This document shows positions 2,396 to 21,778 of a DNA stretch of 21,778 nt, in pieces (positions within the stretch are counted from its first letter, which is position 1; every line of letters begins with the position of its first letter). Both the position numbers and the translations under genes were made by a program. The notes beneath the pieces were generated by a model. The model did not search any database, was not told the DNA's origin, and saw only the letters and a list, made by a program, of their open reading frames with translations. The stretch comes from a virus. The stretch covers positions 1-21,778 of IMG/VR virus record IMGVR_UViG_3300027706_000038. One strand, given 5' to 3'.

Positions 2396-2653
2396 ATGGC
2401 AACTCCCGATCTCGTCGGCGTCGTTCAGTCCGTGGGGCAGGGGCCGGCGGCCGTCACCTCTGACGGGCTGTCGGTCACGCAGCAGCCGGTGGCGGCGGTG
2501 ATCCAGGCCGACCGCTACCTGGCCGCCAAGGCCGCACGCGGCAAGAAGCAGCGCGGTCTGCTCTTCTCCAAACTGATCCCCGCCGGGGCTATGCCCGACT
2601 CGCAGGGGACGCTCGGCGGCGTCATCGGCTTCAACTCGGGGGGGCTTCTCTGA
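2396..2653 (+). CDS. Small protein between terminase and portal, possible gpW-position head-tail protein
   Basis: An 85-residue protein immediately upstream of the portal, where lambda-like phages carry the small head-completion protein gpW. The sequence is not clearly gpW. It has a short beta-like start (VTSDGLSVTQQPV), a helical middle (ADRYLAAKAARGKKQRG) and a glycine-rich C-terminus. I chose the ATG at 2396; an in-frame TTG at 2360 would add 12 residues but has no better ribosome site. The TGATG junction with the portal start implies co-translation. The gene is probably real, but the role is inferred from position only. Confidence 0.6.
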   Translation: MATPDLVGVVQSVGQGPAAVTSDGLSVTQQPVAAVIQADRYLAAKAARGKKQRGLLFSKLIPAGAMPDSQGTLGGVIGFNSGGLL

Positions 2654-4167
2654 TGCTGGACTGGATCAAGAGCGTCTTCGGCAAGCCGCCGGCATCCGGG
2701 CCGGCTCGCTCGGCCGCCGCGCCGGTCCGCCATCGCATCCAGGCCCGCTACGACAACGCTCAGTGGACCGACGAGAACCAGCGCCAGTGGTGGATGTCGG
2801 ACTGGCTGTCGGCCAAGAGCGCTAACAACTTCCAGGTCCGCCGTCAGCTCCGTATCCGTTCGCGCTACGAGGTCAGCAACAACCCCTACCTCTACGGCGT
2901 TTGCACCGGCAACGCCGACGATCTCGTGGGCACCGGGCCGACGCTTCAGTGCCTGCGCGAGTCCGCCGCCGAGAACCGCGCCATCGAGGCGGCGTGGCGA
3001 GAGTGGGCCGAGGAGGTCGGCCTGGCCGAGAAGATTCGCACCTGCAAACTGGCCAAGACCGTGGACGGCGAGGGGTTCCTGATCCTGAAGACGGTCCCCG
3101 ACCTCGAGCACTCGGTCAAGCTCTACCCCCTCGACGTCGAGGCCGACCAGGTCACTACGCCGGCGCCGCACAACCTGGCCGAGCTGTGGGTGGACGGCCT
3201 GGTGCTGCACCCCGTCACCGGCCGGCCGATCGCCTACACGGTGCTGCGGCACCACCCCGGCGATTACTTCTTTCCAAACCTCAATCCGCTGGAGGCGGAC
3301 CGGGTGCCGGCCCGCTTCGTGGTCCACTGGTTCGTCAAGTTCCGGCCCGGTCAGGTGCGCGGCGTCCCCGCCTTCACCAGCTCGCTCGACCTGTTCACCG
3401 AACTGCGTGCGTTCCGCAAGGCGGTCCTGGCCAAGGCGCAAATCTCGGCCAACCTGACGGCGGTGCTCGAGTCCGAAGCGCCGGCCGACGCCGATGGGAC
3501 CGTACAGGAGTCGCCCTTCTCGACGGTCGCGATAGATCGCGGCGTGATGACCGAACTTCCGGCCGGCTACAGTCTCAAGCAGTTCGCCACCGGCGAGCCC
3601 GGCACCAGCTACGAAATCTTTCAGGAGAAATGCTTGGGAGAGGCCTGCCGGCCGCTCTCCTACCCGCTGAACCTGGCCCTGGGCACGAGTCAGAAGTTCA
3701 ACTTCTCGTCCGCCCGTCTTGATCACGTCAACTACCGCAACGCACTTACGGTGGAGCGAACCGACTGCGAGCGCGTGGTCCTTGACCGCATCTTCCGCGC
3801 CTGGCTGGACGAGGCGGTGATGGTCCCGGGGCTGCTGCCCAGGAGCGTCGTCCGTCCAACGGACGTGCCGCACGAGTGGCACTGGCCGGGCTTCGCGCCG
3901 CTCGACCCGGTCGCCGACGCCGACGCCGATCACAGCCGGCTGTCCAACGGCACTCTGACCTGGCGCGAGTTCTGGGCTAGCCGCGGCTACGACTGGCGCG
4001 ACGTGATGCGGCAGCAGGCCCTGGAGCGTGAGGAGATCGAGAAGTTCAAACTGGTCTTCGGCAACCCGCTGCAAAAAACAGAGACTCAGCAGGTAGACGA
4101 AACCAGGGACGCGCGAGCGGACGAGGCCGATGGCGTCGAAGAAGAGGAGGCGGCCGGTGTCTCTTAA
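2653..4167 (+). CDS. Phage portal protein (lambda gpB-like family)
   Basis: Forms the dodecameric ring at one capsid vertex through which DNA enters and to which the tail attaches. The 504-residue protein has the hallmarks of the lambda-type portal family: YDNAQW near residue 33, the RSRYEVSNNPYLYG block at 69-82, DDLVGTGP at 89-96, and KFRPGQVRGVPAF at 229-241. The C-terminal tail (about 465-504) is highly acidic and probably disordered. The start codon shares one base with the previous stop. Its 3' end overlaps the methyltransferase start by 38 bp if the ATG at 4130 is used. Confidence 0.9.
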   Translation: MLDWIKSVFGKPPASGPARSAAAPVRHRIQARYDNAQWTDENQRQWWMSDWLSAKSANNFQVRRQLRIRSRYEVSNNPYLYGVCTGNADDLVGTGPTLQCLRESAAENRAIEAAWREWAEEVGLAEKIRTCKLAKTVDGEGFLILKTVPDLEHSVKLYPLDVEADQVTTPAPHNLAELWVDGLVLHPVTGRPIAYTVLRHHPGDYFFPNLNPLEADRVPARFVVHWFVKFRPGQVRGVPAFTSSLDLFTELRAFRKAVLAKAQISANLTAVLESEAPADADGTVQESPFSTVAIDRGVMTELPAGYSLKQFATGEPGTSYEIFQEKCLGEACRPLSYPLNLALGTSQKFNFSSARLDHVNYRNALTVERTDCERVVLDRIFRAWLDEAVMVPGLLPRSVVRPTDVPHEWHWPGFAPLDPVADADADHSRLSNGTLTWREFWASRGYDWRDVMRQQALEREEIEKFKLVFGNPLQKTETQQVDETRDARADEADGVEEEEAAGVS

Positions 4168-4858
4168 CACGGTGAGCCTGCCAGCAGTTTCCGAGCGACT
4201 CGCTCCGCGGCGACGCCGCGTCGAGCCGCAGCTCGCTCCGGCCGTTACTCAGCCCGGCGACCTGTGGCTGCTGGGCGAGCACCGTCTTCTGTGCGGCGAC
4301 AGCGCGCGGGCGCTGCTCCCCGGCCGAGCTGTCTACGTGTGGGGCGGCTACGGGATCATGGACAAGTGCCTGCCGCTGTTCAAGGAGACGGGGCTTCACT
4401 TCTCCCAGGTGATTATCTGGGACAAGGTGGCTCCGGTGATTACCTGGAAGGATTTCATGGGTGTGCATGAGTGGTGCTTCTACGGCTGGCGCGAAGGCGC
4501 TCCGCACCAGTTCTTTGGTCCGAGAAACGTCCAGGACATTTGGCGAGTGAAGAAGGTTCCTGTGCAGTCGATGATTCACCTGACCGAGAAACCGGTCGAG
4601 CTGGCGGTACGGGCGATTCAGTGCTCGTCGCGCTCCGGCGAGAACGTTCTCGACCTGTTCGGCGGCTCCGGTTCGACACTGATCGCCGCCGAACAGGTCG
4701 GCCGCAGGGCGTTCCTGATGGAAATCGATCCGTGGTACTGCGACCTGATCGTTCAGCGCTTCGAGCGGGTCGCGGGGCGAAAGGCGGAGCGGATCGCGGC
4801 AGGCGAGGAGATCTTTGCCGCGGTCGGCGCGAGCGAGGAGACGGTCGGTGCCTCGTAA
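4130..4858 (+). CDS. Beta-class DNA methyltransferase, internally deleted (no DPPY motif)
   Basis: Belongs to the phage group of N6-adenine/N4-cytosine methyltransferases that begins with a W-LGEHRLLCGD segment (here residues 46-57). The SAM-binding motif LDLFGGSGST is clear at 174-183, preceded by HLTEKPVELA at 150-159. In this class the catalytic DPPY/DPPW motif should follow GDS by some 20-40 residues, but the chain goes directly from GDSARALLP (57-64) to AVYVWGGYG (67-75). The catalytic loop is missing, so the protein is likely inactive as a methylase although the frame is intact. It is 242 residues long. A GTG at 4157 with AGGAGG six bases upstream is an equally good start. It sits oddly between portal and capsid genes. 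Confidence 0.85.
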   Translation: MASKKRRRPVSLNTVSLPAVSERLAPRRRRVEPQLAPAVTQPGDLWLLGEHRLLCGDSARALLPGRAVYVWGGYGIMDKCLPLFKETGLHFSQVIIWDKVAPVITWKDFMGVHEWCFYGWREGAPHQFFGPRNVQDIWRVKKVPVQSMIHLTEKPVELAVRAIQCSSRSGENVLDLFGGSGSTLIAAEQVGRRAFLMEIDPWYCDLIVQRFERVAGRKAERIAAGEEIFAAVGASEETVGAS

Positions 4859-7385
4859 GTGGAAGAAGCACGGCAGGCCGAAGATCCGGGCCGACCGGCA
4901 AGACGGGCCGCGCAGGTTCCTGGCCCTGGCTCAGCAGCCGGTCGCGTTCGACCCGGAAGGGGGCCTGCGGGCGGCACTCGGCGGCGCCAAACTGCCGACC
5001 TTCGAGGGCCTCGCCTACACGGGCGCGGTGATGCGCCCCTCGGGCTGGTGGCAGGACGTGGTGATCGACCTCGCCGGGGTGCAGGTGCCTTTGCAGCACC
5101 GGCCGGTGCTGCGGCAGCACGATCACGAGCAGATCGTCGGGCACACCACCGAGGTGGCGGTGGACGAGGCCGGCATTCACGTCAAGGGCGTGCTCTCGGG
5201 CCAGCCCGAGCACGTGGCCAAGGTGACGATCCCGGCAAGGAACGGCTTTCAGTGGCAGCTGTCCGTCGGGGCCGACCCGATCCGCTGGGAGGAACTGGAG
5301 GCCGGGGAGGAGGCCGAGGTCAACGGCAAGACGGTGGTCGGTCCGCTGCGAATCAGCCGCGAGACGCGACTCGGGGAAATCAGCTTCGTCCCACTGGGCG
5401 CCGACGGCAGCACCTCGGCGACGGTGGCGGCGACGCAGCGAAAGGGCAATCGTATGATCTGGCGATCCGCGCTCAAGCAACTGATGGCCGACCGCCGCGC
5501 CGCCGGCGGCCTGGCGGCCGCCAAATACTCCGACGTAGACATCGACAAGATGTCGGAGGACGAGGCCAAGTCCGCCCTCAAAGAGGCGATGGCCGAAGAG
5601 GCCGACGAGGAGGAAGAGGAAGAGGCCGACGAGGAGGAGGAGGCCGACGAGGAGGAAGAGGAGGCCGACGAGGAGGAAGAGGAGGCCGACGAGGAGGAAG
5701 AGGAGGAGGCCGCGCGGTGCTCGCGGCGATCGGCCGCTCGCGGCGGCCGCCGCTCGACGATCCGGGCCGGCCGCCGCCGCAACGATCCGAGGTCGATCGT
5801 GGCCGAGCTGCGCCGCCAGGCCGCTCGCGAGCTGAGGCGTCAGGAGTCGATCCGCGCCGCCTGCGAGCGCTGCGACAATCCCCAAGTGATCGTGGCCGGC
5901 AAGAGGGTGCCGCTGGCCGCTCACGCGATCCGCAAGGGCTGGGGCCTCGCCCAGGTCAAGGCCAAACTGCTCGATCTGCTGAGGGCGGAGCGGCCCGGCG
6001 GCCCCGTCGGCGTTCCCGGCGGGCTGGCCTACTCGACCAGCCGCCCGCAGGTCAGCGAGGCCGTCCTTGAGGCGGCGGTGCTCCAGGCCTGCCGCCACCA
6101 GTTCAAGCTCGACGACGACGACTTCTACACCGAGCCGACGCCGGACGGCCGCGGCCGCATGCGCCGCGTGCCCAAGTACGTCGAGGCCGACGCTCGCCGC
6201 GAGCTGCGGACCCGCTACACCGACCAGGTGCAGCAGGCGGCCCACGATCTCTACCGCGGGCGGATCGGCCTGCACCAACTCCTGGCCGACGCCTTCCGCG
6301 CGAAAGGGATTTCTCGCCCCTTCGATCTCCGCAGTGAGCCGGGGGTCCGCTCCATGCTCGCCGCCTGGGACCGGCTGGAGCCGGCGGGCGGCCAGCCGAT
6401 CGAGGCCGACGGCGCGAGCAACCTCGGCATCTCCAACATCCTGGCGAACGTTTTAAACAAGTTCGCCCTGCAGGGCTACCTCTACGTCGAGCAGACCTGG
6501 CGAGAAATCTGCGCGATCCGGCCGGTCAACGACTTCAAGCCCACGAAGTCGATCAACCTGCTGGGCAACGCGATGTTTCGGCAGGTGGGCAGCTCTTCCG
6601 AGCTGTCCAGCCTGACGTTCGGCGACCAGGCCTTCTCGAACCAGGCCGCGCCCTACGGGATCATCGGGACGATCCCCTGGACGCACCTGGTGAACGACGA
6701 TCTCGGGATCCTCTCGGGCGCGCCGCTCAAGATCGGTCAGGGCGGCGGTCTGGCCCTCAACGACGCGATCTGGACGCTGTGGGCCGGCATGGCCGCCGGC
6801 ACCGTCAACGGCGACGACGGCGTGTCCTTCTGGCGGACCGGCAACCTGCTGACCGACGCCGCCAAGAAGCAGGGCAAGGCCTACCGCGCCAACAAACTGT
6901 CCGGCGGCGCGTCCGCTCTCAGTTCGGCCTCCCTCCAGGCGGCGAAGGCGCTCTTCGATAACCAGGTCGATCCGAACGGCTTCCCGCTGGGCTTCGACGG
7001 CTCGATGCCGATCCTGCTCTTCGGGCCGTCGAACTGGACGACGGCGATGGAGCTGCTGACCTATCGCGAGATCGTCTACGGCGGCGCGACCGCCGCCAAG
7101 CAGCCGCAGGGCAACGTCTGGGCCGGCACGATGAAGCCGGCCATGAGCCGATACGTCGAAAACCCGAGCTACGTCAACAGTTCGACGGCCTTCTGGATCC
7201 TCTATAACCCGGCCGCCCTGCCGGTGATCGAGGCCTGCTTCCTGAACGGCGTGGACACGCCGGCCGTGCTGCAGGCCGGGCCGGACTACCAGTTCGACAA
7301 GCTGGGGATTTCGATCCGCGGCACGATGCCCTTCGGCTGCAATCAGCAGAACTTCCGCGGCGGCGTTTACTCGGTCGGCGCGTAG
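4848..7385 (+). CDS. Prohead protease-scaffold-major capsid fusion protein
   Basis: One 845-residue polypeptide combining functions usually split over two or three genes. Residues about 45-195 resemble the HK97-type (S78) prohead protease: PLQHRPVLRQHDH at 81-93 holds the candidate catalytic His, QLSVGADP at 137-144 the candidate Ser, and LGEISFVPLGA at 175-185 is a typical closing strand. Residues 236-288 are extremely acidic (scaffold-like). A basic linker follows, then a helical AAHAIRKGW segment and the capsid domain (about 410-845), ending GGVYSVGA. The GTG at 4848 is preferred because GAGGAG lies 7 bases upstream; it overlaps the methyltransferase end by 11 bp. Self-cleavage should release mature capsid protein. 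An internal ATG at 5454 (Met203) could give a separate scaffold-capsid product. Confidence 0.85.
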   Translation: MPRKWKKHGRPKIRADRQDGPRRFLALAQQPVAFDPEGGLRAALGGAKLPTFEGLAYTGAVMRPSGWWQDVVIDLAGVQVPLQHRPVLRQHDHEQIVGHTTEVAVDEAGIHVKGVLSGQPEHVAKVTIPARNGFQWQLSVGADPIRWEELEAGEEAEVNGKTVVGPLRISRETRLGEISFVPLGADGSTSATVAATQRKGNRMIWRSALKQLMADRRAAGGLAAAKYSDVDIDKMSEDEAKSALKEAMAEEADEEEEEEADEEEEADEEEEEADEEEEEADEEEEEEAARCSRRSAARGGRRSTIRAGRRRNDPRSIVAELRRQAARELRRQESIRAACERCDNPQVIVAGKRVPLAAHAIRKGWGLAQVKAKLLDLLRAERPGGPVGVPGGLAYSTSRPQVSEAVLEAAVLQACRHQFKLDDDDFYTEPTPDGRGRMRRVPKYVEADARRELRTRYTDQVQQAAHDLYRGRIGLHQLLADAFRAKGISRPFDLRSEPGVRSMLAAWDRLEPAGGQPIEADGASNLGISNILANVLNKFALQGYLYVEQTWREICAIRPVNDFKPTKSINLLGNAMFRQVGSSSELSSLTFGDQAFSNQAAPYGIIGTIPWTHLVNDDLGILSGAPLKIGQGGGLALNDAIWTLWAGMAAGTVNGDDGVSFWRTGNLLTDAAKKQGKAYRANKLSGGASALSSASLQAAKALFDNQVDPNGFPLGFDGSMPILLFGPSNWTTAMELLTYREIVYGGATAAKQPQGNVWAGTMKPAMSRYVENPSYVNSSTAFWILYNPAALPVIEACFLNGVDTPAVLQAGPDYQFDKLGISIRGTMPFGCNQQNFRGGVYSVGA
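5598..5711 (+). repeat. Imperfect 18-24 bp tandem repeats encoding a Glu/Asp-rich tract
   Basis: Five direct units of 24, 18, 21, 21 and 24 bases each begin GAGGCCGACGAGGAG and encode EADEEEE-type heptads inside the protease-capsid fusion. Unit lengths differ by whole codons, so expansion or contraction would keep the frame. The encoded stretch (about residues 251-288) is nearly all Glu, Asp and Ala and probably works as a flexible acidic scaffold or delta-like domain that is cut away on maturation. Confidence 0.9.
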
Positions 7386-9857: not shown

Positions 9858-10298
9858 ATGTCTGAAAAAATCGGCCTCGACGGCAACCTCTACCGCAACA
9901 CGGGCACCTACAGCACGCCCGTGTGGACGCTGATCCCGACGGTCCGCGACCTGACCCTGGAAATGTCGGCCTCGGAGGCCGACGTTTCCTCGCGCGGCCA
10001 GAACTTCAAGCTCAAGCGAACCGCCCTGCTCGAACTGAGCGTGGACGGGGAACTGATCTACAACCCGACCGACCCGAACTACACCGCCCTGCGCGACGGC
10101 TTTCTGAACAAGACCGTGATCGAGTTCGCCGTCGCCGACGGCCCGATTGCGACCTCGGGCACGCAGTACCTGCGAATGAGCTGTCAGGTCTTCAAGTTCA
10201 GCCGCGGCGAGCCGCTCGAGGGGGCGATGACAAACTCGTTCTCGATCAAGCCGACGCCGAACCCGAACGCCGACCCGGCGTTCGTGACCGTGCCGTAG
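9858..10298 (+). CDS. Major tail tube protein
   Basis: A 146-residue all-beta protein just before the tail chaperone/tape-measure block, where the tube subunit is expected. Segments such as TLIPTVRDLTLEMSASEADV, LLELSVDGELIYNP and SGTQYLRMSCQVFKFSRGEP are typical of the two-layer beta-sandwich tube fold, and the ending FSIKPTPNPNADPAFVTVP resembles tube subunits of siphophages. Subunits would stack as hexamer rings around the tape measure. It has an ATG start 4 bases after the preceding stop. It lacks the C-terminal Ig-like domain seen in lambda gpV. Confidence 0.78.
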   Translation: MSEKIGLDGNLYRNTGTYSTPVWTLIPTVRDLTLEMSASEADVSSRGQNFKLKRTALLELSVDGELIYNPTDPNYTALRDGFLNKTVIEFAVADGPIATSGTQYLRMSCQVFKFSRGEPLEGAMTNSFSIKPTPNPNADPAFVTVP

Positions 10299-11848: not shown

Positions 11849-13513
11849 GTGAGCGCGAGCGCGAAACAGGTGCGTGCCGGCGGGGCGGTCGTTGAGATCG
11901 CCGCCGACGACTCGAAGCTCGGCGCCGGGCTGCGCAAGGCGGCCGACCGGGTCCGGGCCTGGGGCGAAGCGATCGGCAAGGTCGGCGGCAAGGTCCAGGG
12001 CCTCGGCGCGGACGTGGCGGCGATCGCCGCCGGGCCGCTCGGCCTGCTGACGCTCGCCTTCAAGGATCTGGCCAGCCTGGCCGACACGGGCGCCCTCTCG
12101 GGCGAGCAGGCCGAGCAGGCCAAGGCGCTGGACGACGCCCTGACCGACCTGGTGTCGGCGGTGCGGGCGCTCGGCCTGCAAATCGCCACGCTGCTGGCCC
12201 CGGCCCTGGTCGAGATGGTCGGCTGGGTCACGGAGGCGGTGGACTGGGTGGCGGCCCTGGCCGAGAAGAACCCCGGCCTGATCAAGACCCTGGCCGGGGT
12301 CGCCTTCGGCTTCGCCGCGGTCGGGGCGGCGCTGATGGTCGTGGGCCAGGTGGCCGGCGCGGTGCAAACGATCCTGTCGGTCCTCGGCCTGGTCCTGGCC
12401 GGCGTGGGGCTGCTCTTCAAGGCGGTCGCGGTCGGGGCCTCGCTCCTGTGGGGGGCGCTGACGGCGGTCGCCGGCGCGATCCACTTCGTGGCCTCCGGCG
12501 CGGCCTTCAACGCGGTCGCCCTGATCGCGGCCAAGGTCGCCGCGGTCGCGCTGACGGTCGCGACCTACGCGGCCAGCGCCGCGGGGCTGGTCTTCAAGGC
12601 GGTCATGTGGCTGGTATCGGTCGCGACCACCGCCGCCTCGGGCGGGATCAACCTGCTCGTCGTCGGACTGCTGGCGCTCGCGGCCGTGCTGGCCGTGGTC
12701 GTGCTCGCCGTGGGCGGGCTGGTGCTGGCGGTCGGGGCCGTGGTCGCCGCCGGGGCCAAACTGTCCGAGCTGTGGGACCGCTTCAAGGAGGCGCTGGGCG
12801 GCGTGCTCGGGCCGATCCGGGAGGTGATCGACGGGCTGAGGCAGTGGGGCGTGGCGGTCTTCAACGCCTTCCGGGTCGGCGACCTGGAGCTGGCGTGGAA
12901 GATCGCCTGGGGCGGGATCAAGCTCGTCTGGGACGAGGGGATCGACTACCTGCTGTCGGCCTGGGACGGCTTTCGGCTGGACCTGCTGCACGTCCTGGGC
13001 GGGCTGGCCGTGGCGGCCGCGGAGGTCTTCGCCTCTCTGTTCTCGCGGATCGTGTCGATGCTTTTGCGGGTCGTGGCCGCGACGGCCCCGCTCTGGGACA
13101 AGGTGTTCGGCGAAGGGACGGCGGGCCGAATGGCGGGGGCGCTGGCGGCGGCCAACGCCAACCTGCAAGGCCTCGCGCGGCAGCTGCCGGGCGAACTGGC
13201 CCGGCGGGAGCAGGCGGAACTGGCGGCGGCCGGCGAGCGGGCCGCCGCCCGGCAGGGCGACATCCTGAAGCAGCGGAACGAGCTGCAGAAGCTGATGGAC
13301 CGGGCCAACGCGGCCGCGGCGAAAGGCGTGGACAGGCACCGGGCGCGGTTCGCCGAGCTGCGGCACGCGGTCACGGGCACCTTCAGCGCCGAGGCGGCGG
13401 CCGGGCTGGGCACGGACGTGACGATCCCGCGCCAGCAGCTGCAGCGGCTGGCCAGCATCGACGAGGGCGTGCGCCGGCTCAACGACCGGGCGCAGCCCCT
13501 CGTTTTCAGCTGA
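11849..13513 (+). CDS. Tail tape measure protein
   Basis: A 554-residue protein that sets tail length and is ejected into the host at infection. It has an N-terminal helical part (ADDSKLGAGLRKAADRVRAW), a long hydrophobic region at about 147-305 with several membrane-spanning-like helices, then helices with aromatic residues (FNAFRVGDLELAWKIAWGGI at about 336-355) and a charged, coiled C-terminal half (RREQAELAAAGERAAARQGD). It ends with a small VTGTFSAEAAAGLG segment and a baseplate-side tail. At the usual ~1.5 angstrom per residue the tail would be about 80 nm. The GTG start has TGAGG just upstream. It directly follows the chaperone pair, as expected. Confidence 0.88.
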   Translation: MSASAKQVRAGGAVVEIAADDSKLGAGLRKAADRVRAWGEAIGKVGGKVQGLGADVAAIAAGPLGLLTLAFKDLASLADTGALSGEQAEQAKALDDALTDLVSAVRALGLQIATLLAPALVEMVGWVTEAVDWVAALAEKNPGLIKTLAGVAFGFAAVGAALMVVGQVAGAVQTILSVLGLVLAGVGLLFKAVAVGASLLWGALTAVAGAIHFVASGAAFNAVALIAAKVAAVALTVATYAASAAGLVFKAVMWLVSVATTAASGGINLLVVGLLALAAVLAVVVLAVGGLVLAVGAVVAAGAKLSELWDRFKEALGGVLGPIREVIDGLRQWGVAVFNAFRVGDLELAWKIAWGGIKLVWDEGIDYLLSAWDGFRLDLLHVLGGLAVAAAEVFASLFSRIVSMLLRVVAATAPLWDKVFGEGTAGRMAGALAAANANLQGLARQLPGELARREQAELAAAGERAAARQGDILKQRNELQKLMDRANAAAAKGVDRHRARFAELRHAVTGTFSAEAAAGLGTDVTIPRQQLQRLASIDEGVRRLNDRAQPLVFS

Positions 13514-16378: not shown

Positions 16379-17386
16379 GTGGACCTGCACGGCATCGTTC
16401 TGGCGCTGCGGGCGGCGGGGCTGAGGGTGGCCGGCGCCGCCTTCGCCGCGCCGCACCCGACGGCGGCGCGGGCCACGTTTCACCGCTCCGGCGCGGGCTG
16501 GGTGCGGCTGGACTGGGAGGGCGAGCCGGACGAGGCGGCGGCCGCCGCGGTCCTGGCCTCGCCCCGCGGCGAGGCCCGCTTCGTCTCCTGCGCCGACCTG
16601 GCGCGGGCGGCGGTCGCCCTGGCCGGGAAGCTGCCGCCGGACGCGGCGGGGATCGCCGGCGTGCCGCGGTCGGGCATGGCGCCGGCGGCGGTGATCGCCA
16701 CGCTGCTGCAGCTGCCGCTCTGGGAGGCCGGCGACGTTTTGCGGCGGGTCGGCCACGGCGGGCGGGGCGGACAGGTCGGCTTCGCCCGCGACCGGGGACG
16801 CCTGGTCGTCGTGGATGACACGGTCTACAGCGGCGCCAGCATGGAGCGGGCCTGCCGCGCCGCCGGCGGCGGCGTGGTGCGGGCGGCGGTCTTCTGCAAG
16901 CCCGAGTCGGCCGGGGCCGTGGACGTCTTCGCGGAGCCTCTGCCCAGCCCTCACCTGCTGGAGTGGAACCTGTTTAACTCGGCGGTGCTGCGCGGCCAGG
17001 CCACCGACCCGTTTTTCGCGGGCGGAGTTGCCGCCGACCTGGACGGCGTGCTGCTTCACGACGAGCGCTCGGGCGGGCCGCCCGGCACGCCCTACATGCT
17101 CCCGCGGACGCTGCCGGCGCCCCTGATCGTCACGGGCCGGCCGGAGTCGGTGCGCGCCGAGACCGAGGCCCAGCTGCGGCACTGGGGCTGCCGCTGGGAG
17201 CGGCTGGAGATGGCGCCTCCGGGGGCGGACCCGGCCCGGCACAAGGCCGCGCACTACGCCGCCTCGCGCTGCGGCGTTTTCGTCGAAAGCGACCCGGAAC
17301 AGGCGCAAGAAATCTTCGAGCGCTGCGGCAAGCCGGTCGTCTGTCCGCGCACGGGCAGGGTCTGGAGCGAAAGGAGCGAGCCGTGA
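16379..17386 (+). CDS. Phosphoribosyltransferase-HAD hydrolase fusion protein
   Basis: A 335-residue two-domain protein. Residues ~65-185 form a type I phosphoribosyltransferase-like domain: GIAGVPRSGMAPAAV at 91-105 and the PRPP-binding signature LVVVDDTVYSG at 142-152. Residues ~215-330 form a HAD-type phosphatase-like domain: motif I DLDGVLL at 220-226 (D220, D222), motif II VTGRPES at 251-257, a lysine near 289, and FVESDPEQA at 301-309. Such pairings occur in stress and nucleotide-biosynthetic operons linked to Ter proteins and in some phages. The substrate cannot be told here. It sits right after the fibre gene, 4 bases downstream, and its stop overlaps the next start. It might supply a modified nucleotide or nucleoside, or act on fibre or host ligands; these are guesses. 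Confidence 0.78.
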   Translation: MDLHGIVLALRAAGLRVAGAAFAAPHPTAARATFHRSGAGWVRLDWEGEPDEAAAAAVLASPRGEARFVSCADLARAAVALAGKLPPDAAGIAGVPRSGMAPAAVIATLLQLPLWEAGDVLRRVGHGGRGGQVGFARDRGRLVVVDDTVYSGASMERACRAAGGGVVRAAVFCKPESAGAVDVFAEPLPSPHLLEWNLFNSAVLRGQATDPFFAGGVAADLDGVLLHDERSGGPPGTPYMLPRTLPAPLIVTGRPESVRAETEAQLRHWGCRWERLEMAPPGADPARHKAAHYAASRCGVFVESDPEQAQEIFERCGKPVVCPRTGRVWSERSEP

Positions 17387-19845: not shown

Positions 19846-19947
19846 TTGGGACATTACAAAGACGGCACGCCGGCGAGGATCAGCGACGTCGTGAAGGGCG
19901 CGGGACTCAATCAGACGCTTCGTATTCGCAATACATTGCAACGATGA
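19846..19947 (+). CDS. Possible short ORF or gene remnant before the DpdA-like gene
   Basis: The gap between 19834 and 19944 contains a frame that reads like natural protein (HYKDGTPARISDVVKG, then AGLNQTLRIRNTLQR) and whose stop overlaps the next start as ATGA. The only in-frame start near it is TTG 19846, giving 33 residues. It may be a decayed C-terminus of a small helix-turn-helix-type gene or a coupled leader peptide. Positions 19922-19934 also form a 5-bp-arm inverted repeat (GTATT/AATAC). Confidence 0.3.
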   Translation: MGHYKDGTPARISDVVKGAGLNQTLRIRNTLQR

Positions 19948-20630
19948 TCGTCTACCTCGCCAGCCCGAACACGCAGCAGCAGGCCGAGCACGCGGCCGGG
20001 ATGCCCGTGCTCCTGTCCTACGCCTCGTGGTCGGCCTGGCTCGACAGAGGCTATCAGCAGTCCTTCTCTCGCCTCCTGATCGACTCCGGCGCCTACAGCG
20101 AGTTCAGCAGGGGGGTGAAGGTGGACCTTGCCGCCTACGCCGACTGGTCTCGGCGCTGGGTGGGCCACGCCGATGCCATCGCCGGCCTGGACGACGTCGG
20201 CGGCGACTGGCGCAGGTCGCTGCGCAACTATGAGGCCTTCCCGCTCGGCTTCCCGACCTTCCACGAGAGCGACCCGCCCGAACTGCTGGACGACCTCGTA
20301 GCCCTGGCCCGTGAGCGCGGCAACTGGATCGGCCTGGGCCTGCTCCCGCCGCGGGAGAACAAGGAACGTTGGGTCCGCGCCGCACTGGAGCGCATCCCCG
20401 ACGGCCTGCACGTTCACGGCTGGGCTCTGCGCCGGTACACGCACTGCCGCCGCCTGGACAGCGTGGACTCCACAAACTGGTGGCGGGAGGCCATGAGGCT
20501 GCATTCCCTGAGCGAACTGTCTCACCTGACCTACGGCGAGTGCCTGGAGATCGTGGTGAAGCGGTACCAGCGCTGGACGCGGCGGGTCGTTGACGCCGAG
20601 GCGGGGTTGTTCGCCGGCATGGACGGCTAA
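19944..20630 (+). CDS. Guanine-transglycosylase-like TIM-barrel protein (DpdA-like)
   Basis: A 228-residue protein resembling the TGT superfamily, whose members swap guanine for a 7-deazaguanine base in tRNA (Tgt) or in DNA (phage and bacterial DpdA). Visible motifs in order are YLASPN at 4-9, LIDSGAYSEFS at 45-55 (compare the TDSGGFQ block of Tgt), GLDDVGGDW at 81-89, WIGLGLLPP at 128-136, LHVHGWALR at 155-163, and DSVDSTNWW at 172-180, where D172 or D176 could be the nucleophile. No Cys zinc-binding loop is seen, as in short phage DpdA variants. No deazaguanine synthesis genes (folE, queC, queD, queE) are in the window, so a substrate would come from the host or from elsewhere in the genome. 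The match is from memory. Confidence 0.6.
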   Translation: MIVYLASPNTQQQAEHAAGMPVLLSYASWSAWLDRGYQQSFSRLLIDSGAYSEFSRGVKVDLAAYADWSRRWVGHADAIAGLDDVGGDWRRSLRNYEAFPLGFPTFHESDPPELLDDLVALARERGNWIGLGLLPPRENKERWVRAALERIPDGLHVHGWALRRYTHCRRLDSVDSTNWWREAMRLHSLSELSHLTYGECLEIVVKRYQRWTRRVVDAEAGLFAGMDG

Positions 20631-20689: not shown

Positions 20690-21454
20690 ATGATCACGAC
20701 CGCTCCCCAACTGTTCCGCGCCGCCCTCGGGCTGCCCCTCGACGATGGGCCGCACCGCTGCCTCTTCTGCGGCGCCGCCTGCGGCAGTTGGCACCCCGCC
20801 GCCGACCACCTCCGCGCCAGCTTTACCGGCCTCGGCGACGTCGCCGCCCCCGCCTCCGCCCACGTCTGCGGCGGCTGCGTCCTCTGCCTCCGCGAGTCCT
20901 GCGCCGTCGACCTGATCGACGGCACCCGCGGCCGCCCCGTCGCCAAGGGCGCCATGCGCGCCTTCTCCTGGGTGCTCACCGCCCGCGCCGCCCTCGCCGC
21001 CAGCAAGGCCCACCTCCCTCTCCTCCGCGCCGCCTGCCTCGACTCGCCCGAGCCGCCCTTCGCCCTCGTCCTCAGCGACAGCGGCAAAAAGCATCTCCTC
21101 TACCGCGGCGTCGTCTGCCACGACCGGCAGTTCGTCACCCTCACCCTCGAGGGCGAACGCCTGGACTACCGGCCGGCCGAGCTGTCGGCCCGCCTCGACC
21201 TCGCCGCCCGGCTGGCGGCGGCGGCCGGCAAGTCCGCTCTGGCCGGGCCGCCGGGGCTTCGGCTCGCCGCGGCCGTCTGCGAGCGGTTCGCGGACGGCGA
21301 AGAACTGTTCGAGCAATGGGAGACCGTCTATGCCGACCCGCTCAGCCGACTCGCCGTCTGGCTCGCCCCCGGAAGGGACGAGGCTGCCGCCCTCCACCCC
21401 CCCCACTGCCCGCGCTGGACGCAGAGGCCTTCCGCCGGAAGTTGGCGGGGCTGA
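20690..21454 (+). CDS. Csf1-like zinc-finger protein (type IV CRISPR-Cas-type effector subunit)
   Basis: A 254-residue protein with a two-knuckle zinc finger (CLFC at 24-27, CGGC at 60-63) flanking SFTGLGDVAAPASAHVC. A helix (FSWVLTARAALAAS) follows, then EPPFALVLSDSGKKHLLYRG at 121-140 and a VTLTLEGERLDY strand. This order (Cys pair, SFT, Cys pair, PP...SGxKHLL) is what I recall of Csf1, the Cas8-like subunit that defines type IV CRISPR-Cas systems of plasmids and phages. No CRISPR array, csf2 or csf3 is in the window. Leucine is encoded by CTC about 19 to 4 over CTG in the first 470 bases, unlike the CTG-rich phage genes. There is no clear SD before the ATG. The end may be altered by the C8 run at 21397. 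Alternative: an unrelated zinc-finger protein. Confidence 0.5.
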   Translation: MITTAPQLFRAALGLPLDDGPHRCLFCGAACGSWHPAADHLRASFTGLGDVAAPASAHVCGGCVLCLRESCAVDLIDGTRGRPVAKGAMRAFSWVLTARAALAASKAHLPLLRAACLDSPEPPFALVLSDSGKKHLLYRGVVCHDRQFVTLTLEGERLDYRPAELSARLDLAARLAAAAGKSALAGPPGLRLAAAVCERFADGEELFEQWETVYADPLSRLAVWLAPGRDEAAALHPPHCPRWTQRPSAGSWRG

Positions 21455-21778
21455 CCGACCCGGACCGCCGCCCCGAGAGCGCCGGGGAACGAGAGGCGGT
21501 GCGGCAGGACGCGGTCCGTTTCTGTTCGATCCTGGCCCACCTGTTCGGTGAGTCGCTCGAGCGCACGACGCTCTGGGAGCGCATCGGCTCGGCGCTGAGC
21601 ACGTCCCTGGCCAAGGTGACCGACGACGACCTGGACCGCTTCACGACCCTGTGCCTCGAGCACGTCTGCGCCGAGGACGCCCGCGTCGCCGCCTGCGAGC
21701 CGCTCCTGGGGCTGCTGCAGACGTGGGCGGCCCGGCCGCGCGAGTGGCGGCAGGCGCTGCTGCACTACCTGGCGACCC
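21316..21778 (+). CDS. Truncated helical protein next to the Csf1-like gene (partial, start uncertain)
   Basis: An open frame runs off the window end. From about 21415 it encodes LPALDAEAFRRKLAGLTDPD, a charged helical region, then TTLWERIGSALSTSLAKVTD, FTTLCLEHVCAEDARVAAC, and RPREWRQALLHYLAT. It looks all-helical and is not recognised. By position after a csf1-like gene, a small subunit (Cas11-like) is one possibility. The frame has an ATG at 21316, but its N-terminal part looks non-coding. A better N-terminus (MPTRSADSPSGSPPEG) starts at ATG 21330 in another frame and would join this one if the run of eight C at 21397-21404 were seven. Confidence 0.55.
   Translation, partial: MGDRLCRPAQPTRRLARPRKGRGCRPPPPPLPALDAEAFRRKLAGLTDPDRRPESAGEREAVRQDAVRFCSILAHLFGESLERTTLWERIGSALSTSLAKVTDDDLDRFTTLCLEHVCAEDARVAACEPLLGLLQTWAARPREWRQALLHYLAT
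21397..21404 (+). repeat. C8 homopolymer at a frame junction
   Basis: Eight consecutive C lie inside the overlap between the Csf1-like gene and the partial downstream gene. Loss of one C would fuse the ATG 21330 frame with the coding frame that runs to the window end. This is either a sequencing error or a slippage-prone (phase-variable) site. Confidence 0.6.

Follow-up and report, generated by a model that had tools for sequence, protein, structure and literature searches.

At the end of the contig analysed here, a tailed phage very probably carries the 5′ part of a type IV-B CRISPR-Cas effector operon, consisting of csf1 and cas11. The window, i.e., the whole stretch of DNA under study, is the complete linear record IMGVR_UViG_3300027706_000038 (21,778 bases), and the contig stops inside cas11. 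This high confidence covers the type IV-B identity and the phage location only, not the biological role. The assignment is made because relatives of the module show the order csf1, cas11, cas7, cas5 and a cysH-like gene with no array found, matching the published definition of subtype IV-B (Csf1, Cas11, Cas7, Cas5 and a CysH-like protein, no array; PMC8175902). Judged from sequence, the remainder beyond the contig end most likely consists of cas7 (csf2), cas5 (csf3) and the cysH-like gene. The type IV-B reading is limited in that only two of the five genes are visible in the window, the second being cut by the contig end, and that the csf1/cas11 pair may have undergone an indel or decay. A virus-encoded type IV-like complex had been proposed in the original prediction and is supported by csf1 and cas11 on the phage contig together with cas7 and cas5 in the relatives.

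The open reading frame at 20,690–21,454 (plus strand, ATG start, 254 aa) is identified by profile as the type IV Csf1, the Cas8-like large subunit. It matches the PADLOC type IV Cas8 model PDLC01574 over residues 3–232 (E = 2.3e-53, 179 bits) as well as four further type IV Csf1 models in the PADLOC profile search. The NCBI csf1 equivalog TIGR03114 matches at E = 2.7e-13 with 50 bits, below its curated cut-off of 140, and Pfam has no match to the protein. The zinc-finger protein with two Cys pairs, an SFT segment and a PPF...SGKKHLLYR block, on which the original prediction was built, is present in full: CxxC pairs are located at residues 24/27 and 60/63, SFT at 44–46 and PPFALVLSDSGKKHLLYR at 122–139. 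In an alignment of 12 Csf1 sequences, C24, C27, C60, C63, W94, S131-G132 and K134 are invariant columns.

The predicted structure points in the same direction. A PDB profile search with the 12 Csf1 sequences ranked the three solved type IV-A Csf1 proteins on top (8rc3, 9n3y and 7xfz; 3e-5 to 6e-4). In a PDB fold search with the AlphaFold model (pLDDT 90.5, pTM 0.86), 7xg1 (2.8e-5) and 8rc3 (4.5e-5) were the only matches with E < 0.001, followed by a weak match to 8rc2; all three are type IV-A Csf1 chains, and nothing else came near. Sequence profile and structure thus agree on the resemblance to Csf1 that had been predicted. When 72,556 plasmids were searched with the protein by tblastn at a permissive E-value, 11 records were retrieved, nine of them annotated as csf1; the other two are an unannotated Pseudomonas copy (same alignment) and an unannotated Gloeobacter gene matching type IV Cas8 profiles. 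The solved type IV-A proteins (8rc3 and 7xg1, from P. aeruginosa and Aromatoleum plasmids) share the Csf1 fold and the zinc-finger Cys pairs with the window protein, but are only 27–28% identical to it, and type IV-A systems encode DinG and csf5 and are devoid of Cas11. Subtype IV-A is recognized by DinG, csf5, an array and the absence of cas11, whereas cas11 is present in the window.

This second gene (21,316–21,778, plus strand) lies in another frame, overlaps csf1 and is truncated by the contig end. Its earliest ATG is at 21,316 and its conserved part starts from ~21,415. The matches to PDLC01573 (E = 8.5e-32) and PDLC01570 (6e-26) identify the frame, at the sequence level, as a type IV Cas11. 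The protein is 29–40% identical to its 12 relatives (41% to G027, the closest Csf1 relative, in a pairwise comparison). Its predicted structure is an all-helical bundle with a mean pLDDT of 86, and a PDB fold search with the model returned no significant match. The helical partner of Cas11-type size and character that was expected to overlap csf1 is therefore recovered by both profile and model.

The junction between the two genes is unusual. In the window, cas11 is in frame +2 relative to csf1, whereas the 11 relatives in which both genes are present all have +1. Because of this difference, a run of eight C (21,397–21,404, plus strand) inside the overlap, longer than any other C/G homopolymer in the window, was considered as a possible indel site, and a one-base difference at this run, either an assembly error or natural, is the simplest reading of the frame shift. 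The same two features, the deviating frame relation and the homopolymer within the overlap, would also be expected of a decaying remnant, in which the csf1/cas11 pair is frame-damaged and non-functional in the window phage. This is highly unlikely, as the conserved domains on either side of the run are uninterrupted (Cas11 as far as the contig end), the invariant residues are kept, the GC content at codon position 3 (0.91 for csf1 and 0.88 for cas11) is as in the other phage genes, which mostly range between 0.81 and 0.96, and a homopolymer assembly error would account for the shift. The idea that csf1 and cas11 are joined by a programmed frameshift found no support, since the frame relation differs between the window and its relatives; in addition, the csf1 tails past the overlap do not look conserved. 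Across all loci with both genes, csf1 and the conserved part of cas11 overlap out of frame by up to 169 nt (there is no overlap in L040 and L051). This arrangement, in which all 11 relatives agree on the +1 relation, is unlike the usual ATGA-type coupling.

The module is preceded by a set of phage genes, all on the same strand. These encode a terminase large subunit (3–2132, phrog_38, E = 1.5e-37), a lambda-type portal protein (2653–4167, phrog_21, E = 1.9e-56), a prohead protease and major capsid protein in a single reading frame (4815–7385, phrog_4523 at E = 4e-37, also phrog_133 and phrog_3244), a head decoration protein, a major tail protein (9858–10,298, phrog_1407, E = 6e-9) and a tape measure protein (11,849–13,513, phrog_1272 at E = 3e-9 and others). 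With terminase, portal, HK97-type capsid and tail genes on the contig, the carrier is classified by its gene content as a tailed phage (Caudoviricetes), and the phage location of the module given in the original prediction is confirmed. The protease-capsid frame is 856 aa long and has an acidic Glu/Asp-rich linker near 5600–5660. A gene for an N6/N4 DNA methyltransferase (4130–4858) is located between the portal and capsid genes and overlaps the end of the former. The product of 16,379–17,386 weakly matches phosphoribosyltransferases in its N-terminal part and polynucleotide kinases in its C-terminal part.

The location at the extreme end of the contig raises the question of an assembly chimera, in which the type IV end of a plasmid is fused to a phage contig, and G004 (42 kb, portal 66%), the long contig whose backbone is most closely related to the window, is indeed free of the module. 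Nevertheless, the overall GC and the codon-position GC of the module agree with those of the phage, G034 and G037, which share the backbone class of the window, both carry the module, and its nearest relatives lie with few exceptions on virus contigs, the plasmid relatives being distant. The chance of a chimera is accordingly rated as very small.

The DpdA-like candidate that was predicted to adjoin csf1 is found at 19,944–20,630 (plus strand) as a TGT/DpdA-like phage gene (phrog_887, E = 3.9e-15). It occurs in 19 other viral contigs, none with a Csf1 of the window type. As a part of the module it was rejected, as tblastn found no match to TGT in the other type IV carriers. A PDLC01574 search, validated on the window, G027 and the Gloeobacter plasmid, found no match in the phage relatives that were retrieved through the portal and TGT genes. 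The unusual host group suggested by the original prediction was not established: no host is claimed, because the Acidobacteriota relatives of the portal are mostly distant (best 43%).

Twelve relatives of the module were collected, 11 on IMG/VR virus contigs and one on a 4.5-kb contig of an Acidobacteriota MAG. G027 was found with a short conserved stretch of Csf1, G028 by a second scan and the others by a Cas7 alignment. Single-protein scans of viral and genome contigs with the whole Csf1 returned no relatives, and an alignment including the distant type IV-A Csf1 proteins was too diverse for a pattern search. L002, obtained in a Cas11 scan, was rejected as a relative; the match is a terminase-small-subunit-like protein with the short motif TKVTDDDLDR in common.

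According to profile searches, all relatives have the order csf1, cas11, cas7, cas5 and cysH-like gene, as far as the contigs reach. Since the window is the whole record, the genes downstream of cas11 are seen through these relatives, where Cas7- and Cas5-like genes follow directly, as would be expected from the original prediction. In G027 (IMGVR_UViG_3300044994_000102, 53.6 kb; Csf1 identity 47%), cas11 is followed by genes for Cas7 (PDLC01572, 2e-79), Cas5 (PDLC01727, 2e-33), Cas6e (PDLC01617, 7e-30) and a CysH-like protein. A search for CRISPR arrays in the 21.8-kb window, G027 and the remaining carrier sequences retrieved found none, the scan of the 224-kb G031 covering 60 kb. No DinG-like gene was noticed beside the module in the relatives, by inspection rather than by profile.

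The module appears on different phage backbones. Phage hallmark genes, of differing packaging types, were recognized in at least eight carriers. HK97-type portals are present on the contigs of G027, G028, G030 and G033, with a phrog_9 terminase and a phrog_10 capsid in G027. The terminase (phrog_38) and portal (phrog_21) of G034 are of the class of the window, and G037 has terminase, portal and capsid in common with the window at 29–40%. A tape measure gene was identified in G036 and a terminase in G038. Even within the same backbone class the site of the module differs, being after the tail genes in the window, next to the terminase in G034 and upstream of the terminase in G037. The clearest case is the pair G033 and G034, whose Cas7 and Cas11 proteins are 79–81% identical and whose DNA is 75% identical over 2.6 kb of the module, while no other called protein is shared at E 1e-8. 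Because these two have only the module in common, sequence comparison indicates that it moves as a cassette between phages. The match to G033 crosses the ends of the G034 contig (start of L057, end of L058); since it continues from one end into the other, this 37.8-kb record probably represents a near-complete genome that is circular or permuted, although it is classed as linear.

The 12 loci group together in the Cas7 tree as a single clade (support 99/97) that is separate from type IV-A, from actinobacterial and archaeal plasmid type IV-B and from phage SPI1. This clade partly reflects sampling, because its members were collected for their similarity to G027 and G028. The window, which has no Cas7, is nearest to G027 by path in the Csf1 and Cas11 trees, where the support is not strong. 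Among 396 Acidobacteriota genomes, PDLC01574 matched one, the MAG already in the set.

Type IV systems in phages are not new. They have been cited from plasmids, prophages and several lytic phages (PMC10848311), and their presence in phages and prophages is also stated in a review (PMC11656645). PADLOC already has models of the branch of the window (PDLC01570 and PDLC01572–01574). The isolated tailed Skermania phage SPI1 (KR011061) resembles the window in that its orf40–43 (L072, KR011061.1, 3840–7473 for orf40–44) correspond to Csf1, Cas11, Cas7 and Cas5 by PADLOC profiles, with a CysH-like orf44. Its Cas7, however, is 23% identical to that of G031 and groups with actinobacterial plasmids in the trees. 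Fuxivirus, comprising viruses of Bathyarchaeia, likewise encodes a type IV-B system with csf1, cas7, cas5 and a cysH-like gene, but these are archaeal viruses with a mini-array, whereas no array was found here; this likeness is drawn from the published gene content (PMC10848311). The type IV-B locus of Mycobacterium sp. JS623 (csf1, cas11, csf2 and csf3; PMC7937560) is also array-less and starts with csf1 and cas11, as the window does, the relatives of which go on with cas7, cas5 and a cysH-like gene. JS623, likened here by description, carries it on megaplasmids, in contrast to the tailed phage of the window. The Cas7 proteins of other actinobacterial plasmid type IV-B loci are ~24–31% identical to that of G027 and fall outside the virus-contig clade. 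Phage-borne type IV-B was thus already known, and what is added here is the exchange between unrelated phages and a carrier with Cas6e.

In the JS623 complex, heterogeneous RNA of ~55–60 nt is bound by a filament of Cas7, alongside which Cas11 builds the minor filament (PMC7937560). By analogy with this solved type IV-B complex, the phage complex would assemble in the same way on small RNAs, with Csf1 and Cas5 presumably at the filament ends. Without guides of its own, it might sequester or take over small guide RNAs of the host, including crRNAs, and such a capture could serve counter-defence or act against rival elements. Guide-RNA sequestration or takeover as counter-defence is the role that we favour, tentatively and with somewhat less than even confidence, because the complex is array-less and phage-carried.

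A type IV-B operon with a cas6e gene was found once among 13 loci, in G027 (L032, 12,422–13,000). The protein resembles E. coli CasE along almost its entire length (residues 23–192) and has retained the Y-x-x-H motif. As no array was found on the contig, its sequence points to the use of host type I-E crRNAs in that carrier at least. This gene also speaks for a true crRNA-guided complex, which would use guides taken from the type I-E array of the host to silence its defences or rival phages, and in which the carriers without cas6 would depend on the host Cas6. Such a complex is unlikely, given that Cas6e is confined to this single locus and that in JS623 crRNAs were not enriched in the type IV-B complex and co-expressed I-E crRNAs were not preferred (PMC7937560).

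The CysH-like protein suggests another possibility. Its gene is retained in eight of the loci that extend to this position (G027, G028, G031, G032, G033, G036, G037 and G038), and the proteins keep the SWGKDS loop and are devoid of the C-terminal Cys motif of PAPS reductases, both features having been described for CasCysH (PMC8175902). This conservation argues for an extra step on the bound nucleic acid, on which the ATP-pyrophosphatase-type protein might act. Accordingly, the complex could be an RNA-guided or RNA-bound modification device, with a complete operon off the contig, whose ribonucleoprotein recruits the CysH-like protein for an ATP-dependent change of the bound nucleic acid, so that transcripts of the host or of competitors are affected and guides are not sequestered. 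Such a role for CasCysH has been proposed in a review (PMC8175902). On the other hand, CasCysH has no reported activity in the type IV literature cited here, these small proteins are without the catalytic Cys of PAPS reductases, and the window stops before the gene; a modification device is therefore considered possible but somewhat unlikely. Returning to guide-RNA capture, its most extended form would be a virus-dedicated type IV-B lineage, distinct from that of plasmids and exchanged among unrelated phages as a cassette for counter-defence, with the Cas6e of one carrier harvesting host I-E crRNAs (a phage-encoded crRNA hijacking complex). In this full form, it is speculative and rather improbable.

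No other CRISPR subtype is as poorly understood as type IV-B, which has no array, no nuclease and no proven function. Because the cassette resides in phages of ordinary size and moves between unrelated ones, it lends itself to deletion or transplantation with phage growth as the readout, and its role thereby becomes testable. The virus-contig clade is largely unseen in isolates, since Cas7 searches of 50,697 GenBank phage records retrieved only Skermania phage SPI1, by one of two queries, and its orf40–44 are annotated as hypothetical proteins.

Several loci contain additional genes. In G030, cas7 and cas5 are separated by a radical-SAM gene (L043, 1225–2544); in G028, an HD-domain gene separates cas5 from the cysH-like gene (L040, 13,119–13,637). 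The latter contig also has an integrase-like ORF and, immediately upstream of its csf1, a longer PAPS-reductase/DndC-like gene (L040, 8673–10,001). The operon of G031 (IMGVR_UViG_3300028862_000012) resides on a 224-kb virus contig of ~30% GC. Finally, plasmid pGMOR1 of Gloeobacter morelensis has a largely unannotated type IV locus (L029, 3222–9258) near DNA methyltransferases, in which Cas11-, Cas7-, Cas6-, Cas5-, CysH- and Csf1-like genes are arranged in a different order, together with a cupin gene.
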